This document shows positions 4,225 to 36,757 of a stretch of 64,000 nt of DNA, piece by piece. Within the stretch, counting starts at the first letter, position 1, and the number at the start of each line of letters is the position of its first letter. A program made the position numbers and the translations under genes. Origin of the DNA: Anaerorhabdus furcosa (GTDB taxonomy: Bacteria; Bacillota_I; Bacilli_A; Erysipelotrichales; Erysipelotrichaceae); NCBI RefSeq assembly GCF_900167375.1, contig NZ_FUWY01000004.1:186001-250000 (forward strand), read 5' to 3'. The notes under the pieces were generated by a model. The model did no database searches, was not told where the DNA came from, and saw only the letters and a list, made by a program, of their open reading frames with translations.

Positions 4225-4818
4225 CTATTTACTTTCGAAAATATACTCTTTCATTTGATTAAAATATGAAACTCCACTTGCAAGTGATACAAATGCTGCA
4301 AACCATAAGACAAAATCAGATATTGGTAAACGATACATTTCAAATGGAATATTATTTAATAAGATAAGAATGATGCTTACCATTTGTAAAACTGTTTTTA
4401 CTTTACCTAAGTAACCAGCTGCTACAACAACACCATTTTGTGATGCAATCATACGACATCCATCCACGATGGTATCACGTATAACCATAATTAATACTGG
4501 AATTACTGGAATAATTCCTTGAGCTGCAAATAAGATAAACATTGTTGTTACTAGTAGTTTATCTGCAATTGGATCTGCAAATTTACCAAAAGTAGTCACT
4601 AAGTTTCTTTTTCTAGCAATTGCACCATCCAAGTAATCAGTAAAACTTGCAGCTGCAAAAATAACTAAGCAAATTATATTCACTAATGAAATTGATACCT
4701 GCCCAACATAAAATGTTGGAAGTACAATATTAAACTGTGCATATGGAAATATCCAAATCAAAACAATGATTGGAATTAATAATATACGGATAACGGTTAA
4801 TCGATTGGGTAAATTCAT
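4225..4818 (-). CDS. pgsA: CDP-diacylglycerol--glycerol-3-phosphate 3-phosphatidyltransferase
   Basis: 197 aa integral membrane enzyme that makes phosphatidylglycerophosphate, the first step to phosphatidylglycerol and cardiolipin. It starts MNLPNRLTVIRILLIPI, typical of PgsA. It carries the CDP-alcohol phosphotransferase signature D(x2)DG(x2)AR(x8)G(x3)D(x3)D as DYLDGAIAR...GKFADPIAD (about 82-107). About five hydrophobic helices follow the usual pattern. It sits directly upstream of recA. A second, divergent CDP-alcohol transferase occurs at 36801-37355. Confidence 0.95.
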   Translation of the reverse strand: MNLPNRLTVIRILLIPIIVLIWIFPYAQFNIVLPTFYVGQVSISLVNIICLVIFAAASFTDYLDGAIARKRNLVTTFGKFADPIADKLLVTTMFILFAAQGIIPVIPVLIMVIRDTIVDGCRMIASQNGVVVAAGYLGKVKTVLQMVSIILILLNNIPFEMYRLPISDFVLWFAAFVSLASGVSYFNQMKEYIFESK

Positions 4819-4879
4819 GTTATATCTCCTTACTCTTCCTGCTTGAAATTATATCAAGTTTCCCTTTGAAAGTAAAACA

Positions 4880-4903
4880 AAAGAGACATTTTAATGTCTC
4901 TTT
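4880..4903 (-). terminator. rnpB terminator
   Basis: AAAGAGACATT / AATGTCTCTTT, a near-continuous palindrome at the 3' end of the RNase P RNA, followed by T-rich sequence on the minus strand (TTTTGTTTT). Confidence 0.8.
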
Positions 4904-4904
4904 A

Positions 4905-5259
4905 ATTTTCACACTCTGTAAGCCATGTTCTGTCCCCTTGCGGGTGGCAACCATTTATCTATACTTTTCAGTATCCTTTCATTTCTTCAAGTTAGTCATG
5001 AAAGATTCCCCTACCAAATTTGGGTTTCTCGCTTATGGGGTTTATCTCGTTCCACTCTATAAGTTTCCCTATAGACTCCGTCACTGTGACACTTTTAAAG
5101 CCTTTTACCATAGTTTCCCTTAGGTAATTGGTCAGCCGTTAGGTTTTTTCCCTACCTAGCCTTATTGATTGGGCTAGCATAAACACTACAATCATCGCAG
5201 ATTGTGCGAGCATGGACTTTCCTCTAATGCCGAAACATCAGCGATTGCCCGAGTGAGAT
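4905..5259 (-). ncRNA. rnpB: RNase P RNA, type B
   Basis: Catalytic RNA that trims tRNA 5' leaders together with RnpA. Read on the minus strand, it has the universal core block GAGGAAAGUCCAUGCUCGCAC (complement near 5188-5225), the type-B internal text GCGAGAAACCCAAAUUU (near 5015-5032), GUGCCACAGUGACG-like sequence near 5080-5095, and the 3' core ACAGAACAUGGCUUACAGA (near 4915-4935). The order matches the Bacillus RNA as I remember it. Ends are estimated from the flanking gpsB stop and the terminator. It follows gpsB by a few bases. Confidence 0.95.
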
Positions 5260-10039: not shown

Positions 10040-10574
10040 TTTTAGTTCCCTCTTCTATCATTTTAGCAGTTATCCCTTTATCATTCCACGCTTGCAAAAT
10101 CTTTTGAATATAATTCATACTTACTTTTTGATACATTGATGATTCACGAAGTGCATAAATAATTAGTTTTGAATCATACATTTTTACCCAATCACTTAAT
10201 TTCATCATTTCTGCATTACTTAATGGTCTTGCGAATTCTGTTTCAAATAAATCAAATAGTGAACTATTTAAAGCATTTTGTGTTTTCGCAACCTCAATAT
10301 CAAATAACCCATCAAGAATAAATGAAACTTGTTTATTGGTTGCTCTTATTTCCAAATATTTTTTAGCTGCTAATACACTTAATATTTTATCCAAATCTTC
10401 TTGTGATATCGCTGCTTTTTTTGATAAAATATCCATCGTAATCTTAATTTGATTACAATTTAAGAAATCAATTAATAAGACAATGATTGCTTCTTGATTT
10501 GATAAACCTAATACTTCTAAATTCTCAAGAATCCAATCACGATGATTTACATATGTTTGTTTATACCATTTCAT
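10026..10574 (-). CDS. dnaD: DnaD-family replication initiation protein
   Basis: About 182 aa. Of two ATGs six bases apart (10580, 10574), the second is better spaced from AGAGG. The N-terminal winged-helix region holds LGLSNQEAIIVLLIDFLNCNQ. The C-terminal DnaD domain has FETEFARPLSNAEMMKLSDW and ends with the family motif YIQKILQAWNDKGI (YxxxIL..W...G), which contacts single-stranded DNA. DnaD acts with DnaB/DnaI at oriC and in PriA-dependent restart. A TATAAT box lies about 25 bases upstream, and the 10670 gene is divergent. Confidence 0.88.
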   Translation of the reverse strand: MKWYKQTYVNHRDWILENLEVLGLSNQEAIIVLLIDFLNCNQIKITMDILSKKAAISQEDLDKILSVLAAKKYLEIRATNKQVSFILDGLFDIEVAKTQNALNSSLFDLFETEFARPLSNAEMMKLSDWVKMYDSKLIIYALRESSMYQKVSMNYIQKILQAWNDKGITAKMIEEGTKIDIE

Positions 10575-10669
10575 TTTCATACCTCTACCTAGTATTATAC
10601 TAGACTTCTTCACAAAATTGCACTATTTAAAGAAAAGTGATACACTATTACAACCGAGGTGACAAATAA

Positions 10670-11215
10670 ATGATAAAAAAGCTTTTAATTTCTTTAATGA
10701 GTTTATGCACAGTAATTAGCCTTTTATTAGTTTTCTATTGTTTTTTCACTCCTAAAAATAACGACAATATCGTACAGGCATATAGTAATACACTAATTAT
10801 TCCATATCCTGCACTCAATGAATATTTATTAACAAATGGTGATTCTTCTACATCTTATTTATTTTTCTGTAAACCAGATAGTGCTGATTGCCAATATATT
10901 CAAAATACAGTAATGAAAACTTTAGAAGCTGAACAAGGAAGTAGTTTAAGTGAGTTAATTGACTATGTTGATGTAACTGAACTTGAAGATAACCTAATGA
11001 TTAATCAATTAACAGATGACTGGGGAATTAAAAACTATCCTGCATTTGTATCTGTAACAACCGCAAATGGTGAATTAACAATCAACAACTCCATTCAATG
11101 GGATATTGAAAACCCAATGAGTGCACGAGAATTAAAACAATGGATGATGACAAATAAAATTTGGTCTGGCCTCTTCGAAGAAAAAGATGCTGAAGTCTTA
11201 GTGCCTACAAACTAA
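10670..11215 (+). CDS. Membrane-anchored thioredoxin-fold-like protein
   Basis: 181 aa. The N-terminus is a positively charged start with one strong hydrophobic helix (about 4-26), so it is secreted or membrane-anchored with the rest outside. The outer part has SYLFFCKPDSADCQYIQ (about 62-78), where a thioredoxin beta strand would lead into the active-site turn. The two cysteines are six residues apart, not CxxC. IKNYPAFVSV (about 119-128) looks like the cis-proline loop. It may be a structural or disulfide-holding relative and not a classical oxidoreductase. A palindromic terminator follows. Confidence 0.6.
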   Translation: MIKKLLISLMSLCTVISLLLVFYCFFTPKNNDNIVQAYSNTLIIPYPALNEYLLTNGDSSTSYLFFCKPDSADCQYIQNTVMKTLEAEQGSSLSELIDYVDVTELEDNLMINQLTDDWGIKNYPAFVSVTTANGELTINNSIQWDIENPMSARELKQWMMTNKIWSGLFEEKDAEVLVPTN

Positions 11216-11242
11216 AAAGATTGCGAATATTCGCAATCTTTT
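11215..11242. terminator. Palindromic terminator after the thioredoxin-like gene
   Basis: AAAAGATTGCGAATATTCGCAATCTTTT is a complete 28-base palindrome (14-base arms), followed on the plus strand by CTTT. Confidence 0.85.
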
Positions 11243-11328
11243 CTTTAAGTTCTCACCTTTATTATCAACAATTACATTTATTAATAAATCTAATGAAAAA
11301 TCCAGATTTTTCATTATCACATACTTTT

Positions 11329-12012
11329 TTATTTTTCATAAACTTGAATGAATTTCTCACACCAAATAGCACTTCTTGATGAAGCTTTTTCAGCGTACTC
11401 ATCAAAAGTCATCTCGTTTCCTTCTTTATGGGTAATATCTGAAAGTGAGCGAATAATAACAAACGGGCAAGCATAGTGACGACATACTTGAGCAATTGCA
11501 GCACCTTCCATTTCAGCACAAAGTGCTGTAGCATAGTCTTTTTTAATACGTGCTATTTGATCATCACGGTAAATAAAACAATCTCCTGTGACAATATCCC
11601 CAAACCAAACACGGTCATTACCTTCTGTAACATTACGCAAAGCATTGATCATCTTTTCATCTGCTTTAAATGAATTTCTTTCTTGATCAAAGCCAACTTC
11701 CCAATCAGGTACATCAATATCATGGTGTGCCACTCTTGTCGATACAACTACATCTAATACTTCTTCACGCTCATCTAGACCACCTGCAGTACCTATGTTG
11801 ACTACACCATCAATATCAAAGTGTTCAAACATGATCGTTGTACTTATTGCCGCTGATACCTTTGCGATACCACTTCTCATAAGTAAACATGGTTTATTCG
11901 CTAACTCCCCTGTATAGAAATCAATATTGCTTATCACATGTTTTTCTACATGTTGCATTCGTTTTAAAAATTCTTGTACTTCTAATTCCATTGCTCCAAT
12001 AAATGCTAACAT
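11329..12012 (-). CDS. mtnN: 5'-methylthioadenosine/S-adenosylhomocysteine nucleosidase
   Basis: 227 aa. It starts MLAFIGAMELEVQEF, with the catalytic glutamate of the IGAMxxE motif. It has VNIGTAGGLD (about 75-84), EMEGAAIAQVC with the ribose-binding Glu pair (about 170-180), and RSLSDIT with the catalytic Asp (about 193-199). It cleaves adenine from MTA and SAH, clearing methylation by-products, and is the Pfs step toward AI-2 if LuxS is present. Its start overlaps the yqeM stop by 7 bases, so it is the last gene of the yqe operon. A methyltransferase directly upstream fits SAH recycling. Confidence 0.95.
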   Translation of the reverse strand: MLAFIGAMELEVQEFLKRMQHVEKHVISNIDFYTGELANKPCLLMRSGIAKVSAAISTTIMFEHFDIDGVVNIGTAGGLDEREEVLDVVVSTRVAHHDIDVPDWEVGFDQERNSFKADEKMINALRNVTEGNDRVWFGDIVTGDCFIYRDDQIARIKKDYATALCAEMEGAAIAQVCRHYACPFVIIRSLSDITHKEGNEMTFDEYAEKASSRSAIWCEKFIQVYEK

Positions 12013-12701
12013 TTTTCTCTCCTTGCAACTATAAATAGTTTTTCACCCTCTTGTATTCCCTCTTTTTCAAAATCTGTATAGGCTTCACACCTAAAACCCA
12101 ATTCATACAAACTTGTCATGATATCGTTTGGATGAAACACGGTTTGAATATGTTGTTCCTGAATGATTCGATCTTCTTCAAAAAAGGCAAAGTGTTGATG
12201 GATTTCATTATCAATGCTTTGTATTGTCCATTGATAAGGTACATCCAATTCTCCCTCTTCAATATAAAGTTCACTAAATTCTTCTAAGCGATCTAATGTG
12301 TGCATATCAAAGATAAAAATACCCTCATCACTAAGACAGTCTTTAACTGATTGAAACATACGTTTTACTTCTTCCATTGAATTTAAATAATTGATGCTAT
12401 CACAATAACAAATCACACCATCAAATTTCTTATCCAATGTAAATTCTCTCATATCAAGTACTTGTGTCGCTACACTTGGATATTTTGAATTAAGACGTTC
12501 AATCATAGATGAAGAAAAGTCAGTCGCAAGTAAATCATAACCCTCCTGTTGAAGTTTGTAGGATATTTCACCAGAACCACAGGCTAATTCTAAAAGATTT
12601 CCCTTTGGACAAAACTTCTTTGTCAAGTCAACCCATTTTAAAGTTGCTTCCTCATCACCTACTAAATCATCATAGTATTTTGCTAGCCCTTCATAAATCA
12701 T
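12006..12701 (-). CDS. yqeM: Class I SAM-dependent methyltransferase, YqeM family
   Basis: 231 aa. SAM motif I is LLELACGSGEISYKL (about 36-50), followed by ATDFSSSMIERL (about 58-69), the acidic motif II. FDGVICYCDSINYL (about 92-105) is the motif IV region. The N-terminus YEGLAKYYDDLVGDEE resembles B. subtilis YqeM. Position, right after rsfS and joined by a 4-base ATGA overlap, is that of yqeM in B. subtilis. The substrate is not established as far as I know. Confidence 0.88.
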   Translation of the reverse strand: MIYEGLAKYYDDLVGDEEATLKWVDLTKKFCPKGNLLELACGSGEISYKLQQEGYDLLATDFSSSMIERLNSKYPSVATQVLDMREFTLDKKFDGVICYCDSINYLNSMEEVKRMFQSVKDCLSDEGIFIFDMHTLDRLEEFSELYIEEGELDVPYQWTIQSIDNEIHQHFAFFEEDRIIQEQHIQTVFHPNDIMTSLYELGFRCEAYTDFEKEGIQEGEKLFIVARREKC

Positions 12702-13036
12702 ACTTGAACCTCAATTCTTGGTAAATCTCCCCATAATCGCTCCAGTTGATATACTTGACGCTCTGATCCAACAAATATATGAACAACAACTTCAAAGCAA
12801 TCAATTAATTGCCAATCACTATCACTATTACCATCTATTGCACGTATTTGTCCACCACACGCAATTACTTTTTCTTCTACTTGGTCAATAATGGATTTAG
12901 CCATGCGGTGATTTAATGCAGTCGCAATTACAAAATAATCATAAAAAGGATGCTGGTTTTTAAAGTCCAGCACAGTAATTTCTTCACCCAATCGATCATC
13001 AATTGCCTTAACAATCACATCTAATAACTCACTCAA
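12698..13036 (-). CDS. rsfS: Ribosomal silencing factor RsfS
   Basis: 112 aa DUF143/Iojap protein. Features are AIDDRLGEEITVLDFKN near the N-terminus, DYFVIATALNHRMAKSI (about 33-49), and the conserved WQLIDCFEVVVHIF (about 75-88; DWxLIDxGdVvVHiF in relatives). It binds uL14 and blocks subunit joining in starvation. It overlaps the NadD-YqeK stop by 8 bases. The last segment YQLERLWGDLP is standard. Confidence 0.94.
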   Translation of the reverse strand: MSELLDVIVKAIDDRLGEEITVLDFKNQHPFYDYFVIATALNHRMAKSIIDQVEEKVIACGGQIRAIDGNSDSDWQLIDCFEVVVHIFVGSERQVYQLERLWGDLPRIEVQV

Positions 13037-14057
13037 CTGGTCGACCCTCCTTTATTAAATATTCATCTCTTTCTCGTAAAACTCGTTGATAGCCTTCCTT
13101 TAAATCCTTGCACGATAGATCATATAATTCTTGACTATCATACCCTCTTCCAGGATCAATTTTATCGGCAATAAACACAATTTTACTTAACTTACTTTTA
13201 CTATTACATATTGTATGATTAAAAATTGCATTCAATACTTTTTTATTGGTATATCCCATATTCGCCTTAATCCATGGTATTGCGGTAAATGAATGATATA
13301 TACTAGGAGAATAATGTAGTTTATCCTTAAAGTAGATATTCATTAGATGCAATGTTTCATCATAATTCATCTCTTTGCATAAATCATGCAACATCCCTGC
13401 CATTTTAGCCTCATGTACACTTACATGATGACATTTCGCAAGATGAATACAAACTTGAGTCATTGATAGTACATGTTTTGCACGTTTCTCACTACAATGT
13501 GCATAGACAACTTCTTCTAAATATAATTCGTTTTGTAAAATATAATTCCGTACACCCTTTGGACAATCATTAAAATATCCTGAGCGAACTCGTGTACTAC
13601 TTTCTTTTCTATTTAAATCACTAATTACCCATAATCGTTTGTCATTAATTTCTACATGATTACGATTAACCGCAATAAATTGAATCATCTCTAATAACTC
13701 ATCAATGCTTTTCCAAGCATTGAATTGTGCAACTTGATCATCGCCAACAATCCAATGAAATTGAATTTCTGGATAACGTTTTTTTAGTTCTTTAACTGTT
13801 TGTATGGTATAGGATGGCGTAGGTAATTCATTTTCAATTGTACAAACTTTAAATTTACGATACGGTTTACACGCTATTTTAAGCATGTTTACACGAACAG
13901 AAAAAGGAGTACATGTTCTGTCTTTAAGCGGTGTATCTTTGGCAGGAATAAACCAAATCTCATCCAACTTAAATGTTTTCATGACTCTTTTTGCTAGTTC
14001 TAAATGCCCTGAATGAACAGGGTCAAATGTACCACCTAAACACCCTACTTTAATCAT
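13029..14057 (-). CDS. nadD: NadD-YqeK fusion: nicotinate-nucleotide adenylyltransferase + HD-domain Ap4A hydrolase-like
   Basis: 342 aa, too long for NadD alone (about 190-200). Residues 1 to about 185 are NadD, with GGTFDPVHSGH nucleotidyltransferase motif (9-19) and the C-terminal SSTRVR signature (about 153-158). It joins ATP and nicotinate mononucleotide in NAD synthesis. Residues from about 190 are YqeK: SEKRAKHVLSMTQ with the first His, MLHDLCKEM (HD motif, about 225-233), a later HS pair, IFNHTICN and IVFIADKIDPGRG (about 295-307). YqeK hydrolyses diadenosine tetraphosphate symmetrically in other Firmicutes. In Bacillus these are two adjacent genes; here no stop separates them. Confidence 0.93.
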   Translation of the reverse strand: MIKVGCLGGTFDPVHSGHLELAKRVMKTFKLDEIWFIPAKDTPLKDRTCTPFSVRVNMLKIACKPYRKFKVCTIENELPTPSYTIQTVKELKKRYPEIQFHWIVGDDQVAQFNAWKSIDELLEMIQFIAVNRNHVEINDKRLWVISDLNRKESSTRVRSGYFNDCPKGVRNYILQNELYLEEVVYAHCSEKRAKHVLSMTQVCIHLAKCHHVSVHEAKMAGMLHDLCKEMNYDETLHLMNIYFKDKLHYSPSIYHSFTAIPWIKANMGYTNKKVLNAIFNHTICNSKSKLSKIVFIADKIDPGRGYDSQELYDLSCKDLKEGYQRVLRERDEYLIKEGRPVE

Positions 14058-14341
14058 GGTAATTGTATTTTTTGTTCCTTACTCTTACGATATAAAACCA
14101 CTGTACGACCAATTGTTTGTACAACTTCACTATGCGTATTCATTGCCAAATCAAATGCTAATTCTTTGAAATCTTCAGTACATGTTTTAAGAACACTTAC
14201 TTTTACAAGTTCATGTGCTTCTAATGAATCTTCAATTGTTTTATACAAATTGTAAGATAATCCATCTTTACCAACTTGAAATAATGCATTTCTTGTATTC
14301 GCTAAACCTCTTAAATAACTTTTTTGTTTTCCTGTTAACAT
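14054..14341 (-). CDS. yhbY: YhbY-family RNA-binding protein (CRM domain)
   Basis: 95 aa single CRM domain. It begins MLTGKQKSYLRGLANTRNALFQVGKDG, with the GxxG-like turn (GKDG at about 24-27) typical of YhbY/YqeI, and ends QTIGRTVVLYRKS. These bind pre-50S particles. It sits between yqeH and nadD with 1-base and 4-base overlaps, in the operon position of yqeI in B. subtilis. Confidence 0.93.
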   Translation of the reverse strand: MLTGKQKSYLRGLANTRNALFQVGKDGLSYNLYKTIEDSLEAHELVKVSVLKTCTEDFKELAFDLAMNTHSEVVQTIGRTVVLYRKSKEQKIQLP

Positions 14342-15390
14342 TACAACATTGCCTTTCTAAATGTCACATGGACATTTCTTGGATATGATACAACAATTTC
14401 ACTGATATTACCACTAACACTTACCCAACCAAGTCCATCAATTACTATATCCATTTTATCAGCTATTTTTTGAGTTTTTGTTTTTGTGAAATCTTTTTCG
14501 ATTGGTGTTGGTTGATACAATGTGCCATAGTGATTTAACCATCGCTCATCAGCACCCTCTACCTTACCACGATGAATTTCACATTCATCAAATATATAGA
14601 ACACGATTGATGCCGATTGACAGCCAATAAAATCTAATCTTACAAGTCCTCCAATCGCAAAGCTTTGATCATCTTTGCATTGAAATACTAACGGTTTCAA
14701 ACGACGAGTAGGCAAAATTGTCTTTAAATCTTGCTCATGGACAGCCATTAACATTGTTTTATTTCCTTCAATACCTGGTGTATCAATGAAAGTATAGCCA
14801 TTTGCTTCAATCTTATTAAAATCTAGTGTAGTTCCAGGATATCTTGAGCTTGTTAATACATTTTGATTTAAAAGTGCATTTAGCAATGTACTTTTCCCTG
14901 CATTTGCTTTTCCCATGACAATGATATCTCTGCCTTTTGCTAAAACATCTAAAACATGGTAAACCTCATCCACACCCTCTTTGATATTCTTGCCTGTTAC
15001 AACTAAACCTTGAATTGTGATATTCAATTCTTTCAAGCGATGAAAGATAAATTTAGCTATCTTTTCATTACCTAATGTTTCAGGTAATAAATCTCTTTTG
15101 GTTGCCACCATCACAATATCTCGATTCATTAAATGACGATTTAATCCATCAATCATGCTTGCTTCAAAATCAAATAAATCCACAACCCATAAGATGAGTC
15201 CATCCATTTTATTGATTTTATCAAGAACAAGATCTGGATCAATCCCCGTTTTCATAGAAATCATTAAATCATCATAATGCATTAAGCGAAAGCATCGCTT
15301 GCAATACTCACTATTCTCTTTTGGTGTATACCCTAATTCTTTAGGATTAGTTGTTTGCAGTTTGATACCACATCCCTTACAAATTGTCAT
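14341..15390 (-). CDS. yqeH: Ribosome biogenesis GTPase YqeH
   Basis: 349 aa circularly permuted GTPase for 30S assembly. The N-terminal zinc finger is CKGCG...CKRC (about 4-35). Because of permutation, the G4 motif TKRD (about 97-100) comes before G1 GKANAGKST (about 159-167), then GTTLDF and G3 DTPG (about 198-201). The C-terminal domain ends in a lysine/arginine-rich RNA-binding part (VHVTFRKAML). It overlaps yqeG by 14 bases and abuts yhbY through a TAATG junction. No aroE gene lies between yqeH and yhbY, unlike B. subtilis. Confidence 0.95.
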   Translation of the reverse strand: MTICKGCGIKLQTTNPKELGYTPKENSEYCKRCFRLMHYDDLMISMKTGIDPDLVLDKINKMDGLILWVVDLFDFEASMIDGLNRHLMNRDIVMVATKRDLLPETLGNEKIAKFIFHRLKELNITIQGLVVTGKNIKEGVDEVYHVLDVLAKGRDIIVMGKANAGKSTLLNALLNQNVLTSSRYPGTTLDFNKIEANGYTFIDTPGIEGNKTMLMAVHEQDLKTILPTRRLKPLVFQCKDDQSFAIGGLVRLDFIGCQSASIVFYIFDECEIHRGKVEGADERWLNHYGTLYQPTPIEKDFTKTKTQKIADKMDIVIDGLGWVSVSGNISEIVVSYPRNVHVTFRKAML

Positions 15391-15913
15391 AATATTGTTG
15401 TTTCCTCCATTTATTTTTCTTTTCTAAATAATTAAATATCATCGTTTCAATAAAACGAGTTACTTTCCCCGAAGTGTTGTCTTTGTTTGAGATTGGATCT
15501 TGAAGAATAGTAATAAACTTCATACGATTTCCACCCAATACATCCGTAATGAGTTGATCACCAATAACACATACTTCACTCGATTTACAATTGTATTTTC
15601 TTAAAATTGCTTTATATTTACGTTTTAATGGTTTTAGTGCAAAGCTAAAGTAATCGCATTGTCCTTGTTTTGCTACCTCACTCACGCGCTCTTTTACATT
15701 ATTAGAAACTATCACTGGAATCATGTGATGTTTTTTTATTGCTTGAATAAATGAAATAGCCTCATTATCCAATTCATGAACTTCATGAGAAATTAATGTA
15801 TTATCCACATCAACAATAAAAATCTTTATTCCCCTTGATTCAAGTTGATTTAAGTCTAGGTCTTTGTAGTGTTTTATATAACAGGTTGGTAAGAAATATT
15901 TAGCTATCATCAT
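15377..15913 (-). CDS. yqeG: YqeG-family HAD IIIA phosphatase
   Basis: 178 aa. The HAD nucleophile motif is FIVDVDNTLI (about 32-41), motif II IPVIVSNN (about 65-72), Lys in LKPLKRKY (about 93-100), and motif III CVIGDQLITDVLGGNRM (about 115-131). It is first in the yqe operon. Two ATGs in tandem follow GGAGCGTGA, so the start could be one codon later. Upstream lies a TATAAT box on each strand between this gene and the divergent HAD gene at 16004. Confidence 0.92.
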   Translation of the reverse strand: MMIAKYFLPTCYIKHYKDLDLNQLESRGIKIFIVDVDNTLISHEVHELDNEAISFIQAIKKHHMIPVIVSNNVKERVSEVAKQGQCDYFSFALKPLKRKYKAILRKYNCKSSEVCVIGDQLITDVLGGNRMKFITILQDPISNKDNTSGKVTRFIETMIFNYLEKKNKWRKQQYYDNL

Positions 15914-16003
15914 TCACGCTCCACGGTATTATTATACACTATTTTGCATTTTATTAGAGATTAGATATAATAGTTGTTGTAAAACTGGATGAGGAAAAGA
16001 AAA

Positions 16004-16648
16004 ATGATAAAATGTGTAATTTTGGATTGTGATGGAACAATGTTTGATACAGAAAGATTAGCTAAGAAAGCCTATGAAGACTTCGCAAGTCAACATGGTG
16101 TTAACTTGGACCAAGAGTTTTGGAGAGGAATATGTGGAACTGGTTTAGAATTCGCAAAACCACAGCTTGATCGCTTTCCAATCATTCGTGATAATATCAA
16201 GGAAATATCAGCTTTGCGCTTAAAAAATATCACCCATGGTTCTGCTTCTAAAGACAATTTAGTAAAGAAAGGCTTATATGATTTATTAGATTATTGCAAA
16301 GAGAATCAAATTAAAGTTGCAATTGCTTCAAGTAGTCACTTTGACTATGTCAACATGTTACTCGATCATATGTCAAAACCCTATGAGTTTGATTTCATTT
16401 TATGTGGGGATATGATTACCCATAAGAAACCAGATCCTGAAATTTTCAATACTGTCATTGAAAAATTAAATGTGAAACCAGAAGAAACTCTTATTTTAGA
16501 AGATTCATTAATGGGTTTAATCGCCGCAAAAGAAGCCAATGCAATTGCTGGATTCATCGAAGACCAAGTAATAAAGAATGAAAAAATCGAAGAACTACTT
16601 GATGTAGAGTTCCCCGATTTTACTTTTGTACCTCAATATTTAGTATAG
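16004..16648 (+). CDS. HAD-superfamily hydrolase (beta-phosphoglucomutase/phosphatase-like)
   Basis: 214 aa from the ATG at 16004, chosen because GAGGA at 15991-15995 fits it. An earlier in-frame ATG at 15989 overlaps the ribosome site. Motif I is ILDCDGTMFDTE (about 5-16), motif II IASSSHF, then a Lys in THKKPDPEIF, and motif III LILEDSLMGLIAA. The cap domain is the helical type of the PGM/phosphatase subgroup, so it likely acts on a small sugar phosphate or nucleotide; specificity is unreadable. A TATAAT box is at about 15966-15971. Its stop abuts the convergent gene's stop with no space between. Confidence 0.85.
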   Translation: MIKCVILDCDGTMFDTERLAKKAYEDFASQHGVNLDQEFWRGICGTGLEFAKPQLDRFPIIRDNIKEISALRLKNITHGSASKDNLVKKGLYDLLDYCKENQIKVAIASSSHFDYVNMLLDHMSKPYEFDFILCGDMITHKKPDPEIFNTVIEKLNVKPEETLILEDSLMGLIAAKEANAIAGFIEDQVIKNEKIEELLDVEFPDFTFVPQYLV

Positions 16649-16966
16649 TTATTTAAAATCAGAATACTTTGTAGAATTGCCTTTAGCTTTTTCTACAGGG
16701 TATTTTTTTGCGTTCTTTTCCATCTTTGAGCGAATAATTTCTTCAGGATTTACATCCAAAGCAATGCACATTTGTAATCCATAAATTAGAACATCCGCTA
16801 CTTCTTCTAATACATGTTCTTTATCGTAATCATTGTTCCATTGAAAACATTCTAGAAGTTCACCTGCTTCTATGCTAATTGATTTTGCTAAACAATCCGG
16901 AGTATGAAATTGACGCCAATTTCTCTTTTCAATAAATTCTTTAATATCATCGACTATTTTTTCCAT
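16649..16966 (-). CDS. MazG-type nucleotide pyrophosphohydrolase
   Basis: 105 aa. It resembles the RS21-C6/iMazG group: KRNWRQFHTPDCLAKSISIEAGELLECFQW (about 15-44), with the ExxE metal ligands, then VLEEVADVLIYGL (about 51-63) with ExxD, and KMEKNAKKYPVEKAKG at the end. It hydrolyses non-canonical or excess dNTPs to dNMP and PPi. Single gene with its own ATG; the stop touches that of the HAD gene. Confidence 0.88.
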   Translation of the reverse strand: MEKIVDDIKEFIEKRNWRQFHTPDCLAKSISIEAGELLECFQWNNDYDKEHVLEEVADVLIYGLQMCIALDVNPEEIIRSKMEKNAKKYPVEKAKGNSTKYSDFK

Positions 16967-34436: not shown

Positions 34437-34772
34437 TTATTCAATAATTTCTAAATTTATTAATTTTGGCTCAATGGCAACCGATACATTCTTAGTATTT
34501 TTATTTAGAAAACGATACTGTAAAGCCACTGTACATTTACTTTCTTTGACTTGACAATCATTCATATCAAAATAAATTTCTATATCACTATCACTCATTA
34601 TTTCGTCAGATTTAATAGTAACATTCGCTTCAGTGATTTCTTCAACAACTTTGAATCGTTTACTTTCATCATTATTTATAAACGATATTGTCTTTGAAAA
34701 ATCAGTGGTAACTTTTTCATTACATCCTACAAGTAACACAAACATCAATAAAAACAATATCTTATAGCGCAT
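34437..34772 (-). CDS. Small putative lipoprotein
   Basis: 111 aa from the ATG at 34772, which opens MRYKILFLLMFVLLVGC. The hydrophobic run and LVGC lipobox (Cys 17) make this start better than the in-frame start at 34805, whose extra residues are hydrophilic. The rest is a beta-rich outer domain with two further cysteines (DCQVKESKC, about 77-85) that could form a disulfide. No known family recognised. It overlaps the 206-aa secreted protein by 11 bases, so both come from one transcript with the 44-aa peptide gene. Confidence 0.7.
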   Translation of the reverse strand: MRYKILFLLMFVLLVGCNEKVTTDFSKTISFINNDESKRFKVVEEITEANVTIKSDEIMSDSDIEIYFDMNDCQVKESKCTVALQYRFLNKNTKNVSVAIEPKLINLEIIE

Positions 34773-35382
34773 AGTCAGTAAATGTCCTAGTTGATGTTCC
34801 ACCATTATCTTTAACCGTTACCTTCGACGTAAATTTTATATAACTGGAATAATTAGTTCTAGTTAATGATTTTGATTGAACAGTACAACTCGAAGTATCA
34901 ACACTTTGATAAACATTTATATCTGAAAATGTGCTAGATGATGGGTAATACAAATAACTACCAGAAACAGTAATTTTAACTGTAAATAGTGTTCCAGATG
35001 AGGCACCGCCCCAATAATCAGGATGATTAAATGTTTGGTCTACATATTTTTCTACAACAGCCGCTCTTGTGGCATTTGATTTTGTGTAACTTCTATCAAT
35101 TTCAAACCACACTTCATTGTCTCTCATATATTGAAATACTTCTGCGTAATTATTATTTAAGTATTCATCCTTAGTATCTAAATAAAATTGTTCTGTGATA
35201 ATATTATTGCTTCCATTATAGATTGTATAATTTTTATATTCATTGTCATAGAATCCTCTAAGATCATTTACTATCGTATTGTTATCAAAATCATTTTTTT
35301 CCTCCGCAAATATTTTGAACCCCGGTAGCAATAATGATATAGTTATTAAACAACAAGTTAATAAATTTATTAATTTTTTCAT
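34762..35382 (-). CDS. Secreted protein of unknown function, 206 aa
   Basis: Clear signal peptide (KKLINLLTCCLITISLLLPGFKIFAEEK; cleavage probably after FA at about 26). The mature part is rich in Asn, Tyr, Thr and Ser. NHPDYWGGASSGTLFTVKITVSGSYLYYP (about 119-147) and the C-terminal KVTVKDNGGTSTRTFTDY look like beta-strand surface or adhesin-like repeats. No enzyme motif. Start behind AAAGGAG, with its ATG overlapping the stop of the peptide gene (ATGA). Exported product of the peptide-linked unit. Confidence 0.75.
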   Translation of the reverse strand: MKKLINLLTCCLITISLLLPGFKIFAEEKNDFDNNTIVNDLRGFYDNEYKNYTIYNGSNNIITEQFYLDTKDEYLNNNYAEVFQYMRDNEVWFEIDRSYTKSNATRAAVVEKYVDQTFNHPDYWGGASSGTLFTVKITVSGSYLYYPSSSTFSDINVYQSVDTSSCTVQSKSLTRTNYSSYIKFTSKVTVKDNGGTSTRTFTDYAL

Positions 35383-35513
35383 ATAAGATTTTCTCCTTTC
35401 AATTTTCTCAAATCCAGATGATAAATTCCTCTATAGGAAGTAGTATGCAAAGACTTCTTTGCATTTTTTATCAATTGGTTTACAACTAGATCAATTACTT
35501 TCTTTGATTTCAT
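35379..35513 (-). CDS. 44-aa AgrD-like peptide precursor candidate
   Basis: Opens at an ATG at 35513 behind the very strong site AAAGGGAGG (7 bases spacing) and ends in a TGA overlapping the next ATG. It reads MKSKKVIDLVVNQLIKNAKK, an amphipathic N-terminal helix of the type that targets AgrD to membrane, then SLHTTSYRGIYHLDLRKLKGENLI. The small S-Y-R-G-I-Y core and charged tail resemble cyclic lactone autoinducer precursors (core, then acidic/basic tail). The expected ring Cys is absent; Ser would have to make a lactone, as known for one staphylococcal AIP. No AgrB is near. That it is translated is likely; that it signals is inference. Confidence 0.6.
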   Translation of the reverse strand: MKSKKVIDLVVNQLIKNAKKSLHTTSYRGIYHLDLRKLKGENLI

Positions 35514-35570
35514 AATAGTACCTCCCTTTGATTAATACATATCATTGTTTTTTGGTTATCGCAATACATT

Positions 35571-35598
35571 TGGGCTAACTTGCATTATTATGGGCTAA
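35571..35598. promoter_or_regulatory. Direct repeat TGGGCTAA, 20-base period
   Basis: TGGGCTAA at 35571-35578 and again at 35591-35598 (on the minus strand TTAGCCCA twice), with 12 bases between the copies. LytTR-family response regulators (AgrA, ComE) bind paired 9-base direct repeats separated by 12-13 bases, so this looks like such a site about 57 bases upstream of the peptide start. The regulator is not in the window. Confidence 0.45.
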
Positions 35599-35677
35599 AT
35601 AACATATAAATTGATTTCTTATAGATATTTCTTCACGTTTTAAAAAACCAATGTTAAACTTTCATTAGGTAATGAAT

Positions 35678-36543
35678 ATGAAAAAAATATTGATTAATTA
35701 TTTGAAAAATAAAGATACTGACGAAAATCAATTGTCCTTGCTTGTCATGGGTATGATATTTTCGTTAGTGATTTAATTAATTTTATTCAAATGTTCTTTG
35801 AAAGTCTCATATTTACAAATAAGATCAATAAACTACCTCTATTTATTTCATAATTGTCTTTAATTATTTCACTGCTTCTATTATTTGTAATTGTATCTAA
35901 AATGAATCAAAATTTAAAAGAGTTAAATAAACAAAAACTTGACGTAGCACTTTTAAATAATCGAATAGAACACAATGAAGAAGTACTGCAGTTTCAACAA
36001 GAAATTTATAACTTAAAGCACGATATGAAACATTTGTTACAATTAAAAGACTGTGGTAAAGGAGATTTCCCTATTGATGATTTTTTAACTAATTATTCTA
36101 ATAAAATTGATGAATTACCCTTTTCTTATAATACAAATAATAAAGTTATTAATTATGTTTTAAAAATAAAAAAAGAAGAAGCACTCCTGAGTAAAATTGA
36201 TTTTACAGTCACTACAAACTTAGTAGAAACACTTCCAATCGAAGACATTGATCTATACTTGCTTCTAATGAATTTATTTGATAATGCAATAGAAAATATT
36301 GGAGGAAATAAATTAATCAAAACAACTATCTCTTCAAGCAATCGTTCACTAATAATAAAATCGATTAACTCAACATCTCCTACTCTTCCATCAATGGTGC
36401 AAGATATTCAAAGTAAAAAGAAAGAAACAGGACATGGTTATGGATTAAAAACAATGAAAAAAAATAGCTGAAAAATATAATGGAAGTATAATTATTGCTC
36501 AAAAACAAAACGAGTTTGTTGTGATATAGAATTAAAAATTTAA
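35678..36543 (+). pseudogene. GHKL sensor histidine kinase (AgrC/ComD-like), broken
   Basis: Start MKKILINYLKNKDTD at 35678. After about 33 codons (VMGMIFSLVI) a stop is met; the next frame continues LINFIQMFFESLIF...LPLFIS, then a TAA, then LSLIISLLLLFVIVSK in the same frame, which is the open part (35854-36471). That part has the H-box LKHDMKHLLQL, the N-box LFDNAIENI and the G-box GHGYGLKTM. An 8-A run (about 36455-36463) shifts the frame so the tail IAEKYNGSIIIAQKQNEF and, after another shift, DIELKI are out of frame. So at least three frameshifts and one stop break it. Membrane domain is short (about two helices). Confidence 0.8.
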
Positions 36544-36556
36544 ATCCGCAATATTT

Positions 36557-36757
36557 TTAAACACCCATTGAATTCCTTGAATACTGGTATATTCCATTTC
36601 TATTTATATTTGTTGAAGATGGTTTTCCAAAATCATAAGTTGTTAGTGCACATAGGATTAAGCCTATACAATAAATTATAACTAGTATATTCAACAACTT
36701 GGAGTTTCTAGGGCAACATGAAAATTTAAGGCGTGTTTTACCTCGTCTAATTTAGTT
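36557..36757 (-). pseudogene. Remnant of a small membrane protein
   Basis: A minus-strand frame of about 65 codons with no good start reads RGKTRLKFSCCPRNSK, then a hydrophobic helix LLNILVIIYCIGLILCAL, then TTYDFGKPSSTN and a stop at 36557. A stop lies just upstream of the fragment. It could be the C-terminal piece of a multi-helix protein (AgrB was considered, see findings). No family assigned. The stretch 36544-36800 holds nothing else I can support. Confidence 0.35.

Follow-up and report, generated by a model that had tools for sequence, protein, structure and literature searches.

Most AIP rings known so far consist of five residues; those of C. acetobutylicum and E. faecalis have six and nine, respectively, and in some AIPs Ser is found in place of Cys (PMC4916163). 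The AIP of Listeria is CFMFV (PMC4916163). In S. aureus, AgrA binds direct repeats located 5′ of its promoters (PMC4227749). Ser-lactone signals have also been described (PMC3673130), so this chemistry itself would not be new.

The analysis of a window of Anaerorhabdus furcosa DNA (the whole stretch analysed, 64,000 nucleotides) located a short gene, designated pep44, at positions 35379..35513 of the (−) strand. ORF analysis, a leave-one-out HMM and alignment identified it as the gene of a Ser-type AgrD-like precursor. It starts with ATG and encodes the 44-residue product MKSKKVIDLVVNQLIKNAKKSLHTTSYRGIYHLDLRKLKGENLI, which contains no Cys. The ribosome binding site AAGGGAGG (35521..35528, (−) strand) is situated 7 nt 5′ of the ATG, and the TGA stop codon shares the sequence ATGA with the start of a gene for a 206-residue exported protein with a signal peptide (34762..35382, (−) strand). 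A 44-codon ORF with a strong ribosome site and an ATGA overlap with a secreted protein had been reported in the preliminary description of this DNA, and all of these elements are present at 35513..35379 on the (−) strand. The product consists of a helix (residues 1–22), a predicted ring starting from Ser26 and a charged tail (H32–I44) with the motif D34-x-R36-x-L38-K39. The N-terminal helix was described earlier as amphipathic; it is cationic and its amphipathicity is of moderate strength (moment 0.53, P 0.03 against shuffles), being weak or not notable in several relatives. The ring Cys is indeed missing, as noted before, and Ser26 is found instead. A terminator-like hairpin at positions 35445–35464 of the window ((+) strand) lies within the pep44 coding sequence on the opposite strand and is probably due to chance.

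Family membership was assessed with a profile of 16 relatives from which pep44 was excluded. Against this profile pep44 scored 38.5 bits (E 2.2e-10 over 6,312 ORFs); the best of 10,000 shuffles reached 12.8 bits and the next ORF of the window 9.0 bits. With the paralogue on contig C7 also excluded from the profile, the score was 34.7 bits. The preliminary description had made a signalling role depend on conservation among relatives, and this conservation was found: Ser26, Asp34, Arg36, Leu38 and Lys39 do not vary among the 17 aligned sequences and position 31 is Tyr, Phe or His in all 17, while ring positions 27, 28 and 30 vary like those of other AIPs. At position 32 pep44 has His, where Gln is near-invariant in its family. 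All 35 distinct family sequences have Ser at the ring position and none has Cys (in two, which the script left unparsed, the Ser was read by eye).

Comparison of the pep44 family with canonical AgrD by hhalign (93.1%, E 3.2e-7) placed Ser26 opposite the ring Cys; the target consisted of nine AgrDs adjoining agrB in related genomes, five of which pass TIGR04223. Two Ser-bearing peptides from related genomes, lying outside the pep44 family, pass this curated model as well. Searches of Pfam/NCBIfam gave no match for pep44 even at E 10, and none of the 17 family members scored over the cut-off of the curated AgrD models (TIGR04223 / PF05931). Because the family falls below the TIGR04223 cut-off, we call it AgrD-like and do not file it under that model. 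The AgrD-like character claimed for this peptide is supported by the profile comparison, though not at the level of the curated models. The tail is charged and conserved and differs from the usual P-containing motif. As in AgrD, there is a Cys or Ser nucleophile (the invariant Ser26) with a core of 5–6 residues. An adjoining intact agrB, a further AgrD feature, is absent at pep44 itself; most relatives and the C7 paralogue do adjoin agrB-agrA-agrC, as a check of neighbourhoods proposed earlier now confirms. A plasmid search found no relatives of pep44. Overall, pep44 is almost certainly a homologue of AgrD and, judged from its sequence, a member of an undescribed Ser-for-Cys family of AgrD-like signal precursors.

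Cyclisation of pep44 would likely proceed by Ser-lactone chemistry at Ser26. By analogy, the ring is most likely to comprise the five residues S-Y-R-G-I; possibly it has six, S-Y-R-G-I-Y, and ends in Tyr31. In Listeria the AgrD precursor reads Y-E-P after CFMFV, and for this reason the conserved aromatic residue of the pep44 family is probably the first residue of the tail, leaving S-Y-R-G-I as the ring. The AgrB residues His67 and Cys74 are invariant in nine divergent-type AgrBs.

The A. furcosa genome (2.4 Mb, 11 contigs) contains five AgrB loci besides a remnant in the window. Searching it with the peptide yielded one pep44 paralogue, at C7, which is 46% identical, has a ribosome site resembling that of pep44 and lies ~180 bp from an intact agrB-agrA-agrC operon, to which it is divergent and whose regulator (LytTR-type) and kinase (GHKL-type) are agrA and agrC. 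The agr locus at C2 and two at C5 encode AgrD-like peptides whose cores are without Cys (TSSRGLYQP, VSASNMHQP and KSKYRAYEP). Behind the AgrD-like peptide of C2 come a secreted protein and then a lipoprotein. This order matches the window, where a gene for a lipoprotein with the lipobox MRYKILFLLMFVLLVGC (34437..34772, (−) strand) overlaps the exported-protein gene; its start at 34772 (MRYKIL) was preferred over 34805. We also observed that the C2 agrB is broken by a frameshift and stops (L018, C2:52000-62000, positions 4459–5054), with agrA, agrC and the cassette of Ser-type agrD, secreted protein and lipoprotein all intact; this is a second agr locus in the genome losing its processing gene. 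A further agr-type locus (L016, C10:50000-69500, positions 10095–16744) has agrB, a LytTR-like regulator and a GHKL-like kinase, adjoined by a radical SAM/SPASM-like protein, an ABC transporter and a small CCCG-ending ORF (13783–13890). It also encodes a TIGR04223-positive peptide (..MSAFGWYQPEKY, 29.2 bits), followed by tandem secreted and membrane proteins.

Outside this genome, a search of 273 family genomes with the C7 AgrB gave a match in 24. In the neighbourhoods of these relatives small ORFs that share the core and tail are divergent to agrB, a layout which recurs across Erysipelotrichaceae. Of 316 genomes of the order, 22 were matched by the 17-peptide profile, and all of these are Erysipelotrichaceae. 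Named records matching some of the relatives belong to Solobacterium sp. and to Erysipelotrichaceae MAGs from sheep and goat gut.

According to the preliminary description no AgrB is present in the window. This is correct for intact genes but not for remnants. At 35678..35835 ((+) strand) the AgrB profile located an agrB start codon and ~50 N-terminal residues, interrupted by a frameshift and stop codons (..LACHGYDIFVSDLINF..), and at 35722..36540 ((+) strand) there is a truncated agrC, encoding a GHKL kinase, without its first ~160 residues and broken near both ends. Against the profile of nine divergent-type AgrBs the agrB remnant scored 13.6 bits (domain E 1.2e-5) across the frameshift, and it is the only stretch in the window that matches this profile; pairwise alignment of the first frame alone was not significant (best 43 of 2000 shuffles). 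The agrC remnant gave a tblastn match to the C7 AgrC from residue 164 (E 1.5e-20), and a GHKL domain was detected. No piece of agrA was found using tblastn. A fragment of an ICMT-like gene (36560..36682, (−) strand), with 78% protein and 89% DNA identity to C10, where the gene is intact and adjoins agrB, is a further mark of decay. The agrB-agrC remnant is divergent from pep44. From the divergent AgrC match and the match to the AgrB N-terminus we infer a lost operon: agrB-agrA-agrC very probably once stood here in the usual divergent arrangement of the family, and was very probably destroyed by frameshifts together with an internal deletion, which would have removed agrA entirely, along with the remainder of agrB and the beginning of agrC.

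Upstream of pep44 a pattern search located the direct repeat TTAGCCCA-N12-TTAGCCCA with a period of 20 bp (35571..35598, (−) strand), ~60–85 nt 5′ of the start codon. The TTAGCCCA pattern with its 12-base spacer has two exact sites and resembles a LytTR/AgrA site, for which it is a candidate. Tested alone the repeat did not reach significance (P about 0.1); what speaks for it is its shared position and an unchanged 44-bp block around it (35562..35605, (−) strand), 100% identical to C2:486102-486241 with diverged flanks. Repeats with a period of 20–21 bp start ~84–101 nt before the gene at C2, C5, C7, L057, L058, L069 and L078, and farther upstream at L055; their sequence differs locus by locus. 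No such repeat was seen at family members L059, L064 and L082. The repeat of the C2 agrD is close in sequence to that of pep44 (3 mismatches), hence our guess that the C2 regulator could act at the pep44 repeat. The second copy of the block (L099, C2:486102-486241 and downstream) forms part of a mosaic cassette, which combines the pep44 promoter block with a C10-like peptide, a secreted protein of 114 aa and a lipoprotein almost the same as the C7 one; this suggests recombination between cassettes.

Behind pep44, no known domain was found in the 206-aa exported protein with Pfam/NCBIfam, and a related-locus search with it returned no relatives. Its AlphaFold model, with no relatives in the input, was poor (pLDDT 42). 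A decayed second copy is present at C10:56981-57240. Between the two copies the synonymous fraction is 0.34 against 0.18 expected, base-composition and transition bias being uncorrected. For the lipoprotein that follows, a function as an immunity or partner protein is a guess.

We think it likely that pep44 encodes the Ser-lactone AIP precursor of an orphaned agr-type cassette, whose processing would take place in trans if the cassette is still active. The family membership, the invariant Ser and tail, the neighbourhoods and the decay can be read from the DNA itself. We infer cleavage, lactone formation, sensing and trans-processing as follows. The helix would place the precursor at the membrane. 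A peptidase of the AgrB family would cleave it behind the core, closing a lactone between Ser26 and the C-terminus so created, and the resulting peptide would be sensed by an AgrC/AgrA pair that acts on the upstream direct repeat. Translational coupling from precursor to exported protein to lipoprotein would mean that signal and exported protein are made together. As its own divergent agrB-agrA-agrC is lost, processing and control would have to come in trans, possibly from the paralogous agr systems at C7 (given the peptide similarity) and C2 (given the repeat similarity).

On whether this copy of pep44 is still active our judgement is evenly balanced. It may have become a relic, AgrD-type by descent and neither processed nor sensed since the loss of agrBAC, and this we regard as a serious possibility, if somewhat short of an even one. 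Activity is doubted because agrB and agrA of its own are gone and because His has replaced the near-invariant Gln32; the broken agrC, the ICMT-like gene reduced to a fragment and other decayed pieces of such cassettes elsewhere in the genome are also in keeping with a relic, and the decayed neighbours could mean that the pep44 cassette is dying too. Against this, all three ORFs of the cassette (pep44, exported protein, lipoprotein) are undamaged beside ~800 bp carrying several lesions, the repeat block is unchanged relative to its second copy, the exported protein shows a synonymous excess and orphan copies recur among relatives. These features and the intact ribosome site speak for activity.

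The relatives also bear on what the precursor does. The order of agrD, secreted protein and then lipoprotein, membrane protein or ABC transporter is repeated among them, and orphan cassettes are common. Genes overlap by ~1 nt at L065 and L160 and by four nt at L075. One genome (G142; L065, L072, L157, L159, L160) has six closely similar Ser-type precursors, each before a different exported protein; four share the core SHAGN, and several are far from agrB. At three loci of another genome (G161; L053, L056 and L156) the AgrD segment shares one reading frame with a hydrophobic segment and a domain that is exported. In L053 and L056 a start codon is absent between the AgrD tail and the hydrophobic segment, and L156 has the same layout. 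The separately encoded secreted protein behind the agrD of L160 is a homologue of the exported part of L056 (E 8e-18), which marks L056 as a real gene fusion; L056 and L156 are similar over their first 80 residues and differ later. All three fusions come from this one genome assembly. Two other candidates, L060 and L158, were rejected as fusions, having an internal ATG before the lipobox. The exported proteins are diverse and include one metalloprotease-like protein (L057; M10 below cut-off) and one C39-like peptidase; no known domain was found in most of them.

The in-frame fusions without a usable start codon and the tight overlaps at other loci would also fit an AgrD-like segment that is a removable header, cut by AgrB mainly so that the protein behind it can be exported or matured, with the released ring not being a signal. 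Most family members are separate genes, though, and L058, L059 and L064 precede no exported protein. Ring residues are hypervariable and the tail is fixed, as would be expected of signals, and agrC and agrA adjoin most intact loci; we consider a header of this kind improbable.

An amphipathic, cationic N-terminal helix could likewise belong to a membrane-active peptide, antimicrobial or modulin-like and unrelated to AgrD. This is very improbable, as conservation lies in Ser26 and the tail and not in the helix, several family members are without notable amphipathicity, and members of the family adjoin agrB. That pep44 is an ORF arisen by chance, with a ribosome site that happens to look good, short as it is and situated in an AT-rich window rich in ORFs of similar size, is ruled out by E 2e-10 against an independent profile and by 0 of 10,000 shuffles.

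The papers searched, a collection lacking most subscription journals, yielded no description of a Ser-only AgrD-like family, of the divergent arrangement, of a role at the head of cassettes or of the fusions; in the open-access collection searched, AgrD and Erysipelotrichaceae were named together only in a respiratory-tract microbiome review. The signal precursor proposed here would add to the agr-type precursors a Ser-only branch, in a gut-bacterial family, that current annotation models miss. A signal gene coupled, and even fused, to an exported protein points to a direct connection of the quorum signal with the secreted product, and near-identical precursors before different exported proteins of one genome make 'one signal, many effectors' testable. 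The pep44 locus illustrates the fate of a signal gene once its processing and sensing genes are lost. More speculatively, and in our estimate rather unlikely, the Ser-only AgrD family of Erysipelotrichaceae would be a swappable AgrB-cut header of exported-protein cassettes, in some cases lying on the same polypeptide, with the pep44 cassette kept after the loss of agrBAC. If true, signal release would go hand in hand with making the exported protein, and many different exported proteins of a genome could be controlled by a single signal.

With AgrD (TIGR04223, PF05931) pep44 shares the three-part layout, the nucleophile, a short variable core, the aromatic residue and a charged tail, and its paralogues and relatives likewise adjoin AgrB, a LytTR regulator and a GHKL kinase. 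Unlike AgrD, the pep44 family is Ser-only, has the tail D-x-R-x-L-K and not a P-containing one, and is missed by curated models; its gene is usually divergent from agrB and is coupled or fused to exported proteins. FsrD/GBAP of Enterococcus faecalis is also a Ser-lactone pheromone and governs secreted proteins, among them gelatinase, a metalloprotease (PMC3673130), with which the metalloprotease-like protein behind family member L057 may be compared. The GBAP ring exceeds the prototype by four residues, and fsrD sits inside fsrB (PMC3673130); in contrast to that nine-residue ring and gene arrangement, pep44 has a core of 5–6 residues and is a separate divergent gene. In Staphylococcus intermedius/pseudintermedius the AIP has Ser for Cys and is a lactone within an otherwise ordinary agr system (PMC3673130). 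There it is a lone substitution in a canonical AgrD, whereas the whole pep44 family is Ser-only. Finally, AgrD of Listeria monocytogenes, with its five-residue ring CFMFV (PMC4916163), is the model for the predicted S-Y-R-G-I ring, but it forms a Cys thiolactone and belongs to a canonical agr operon, unlike the Ser-type, divergent arrangement of pep44.
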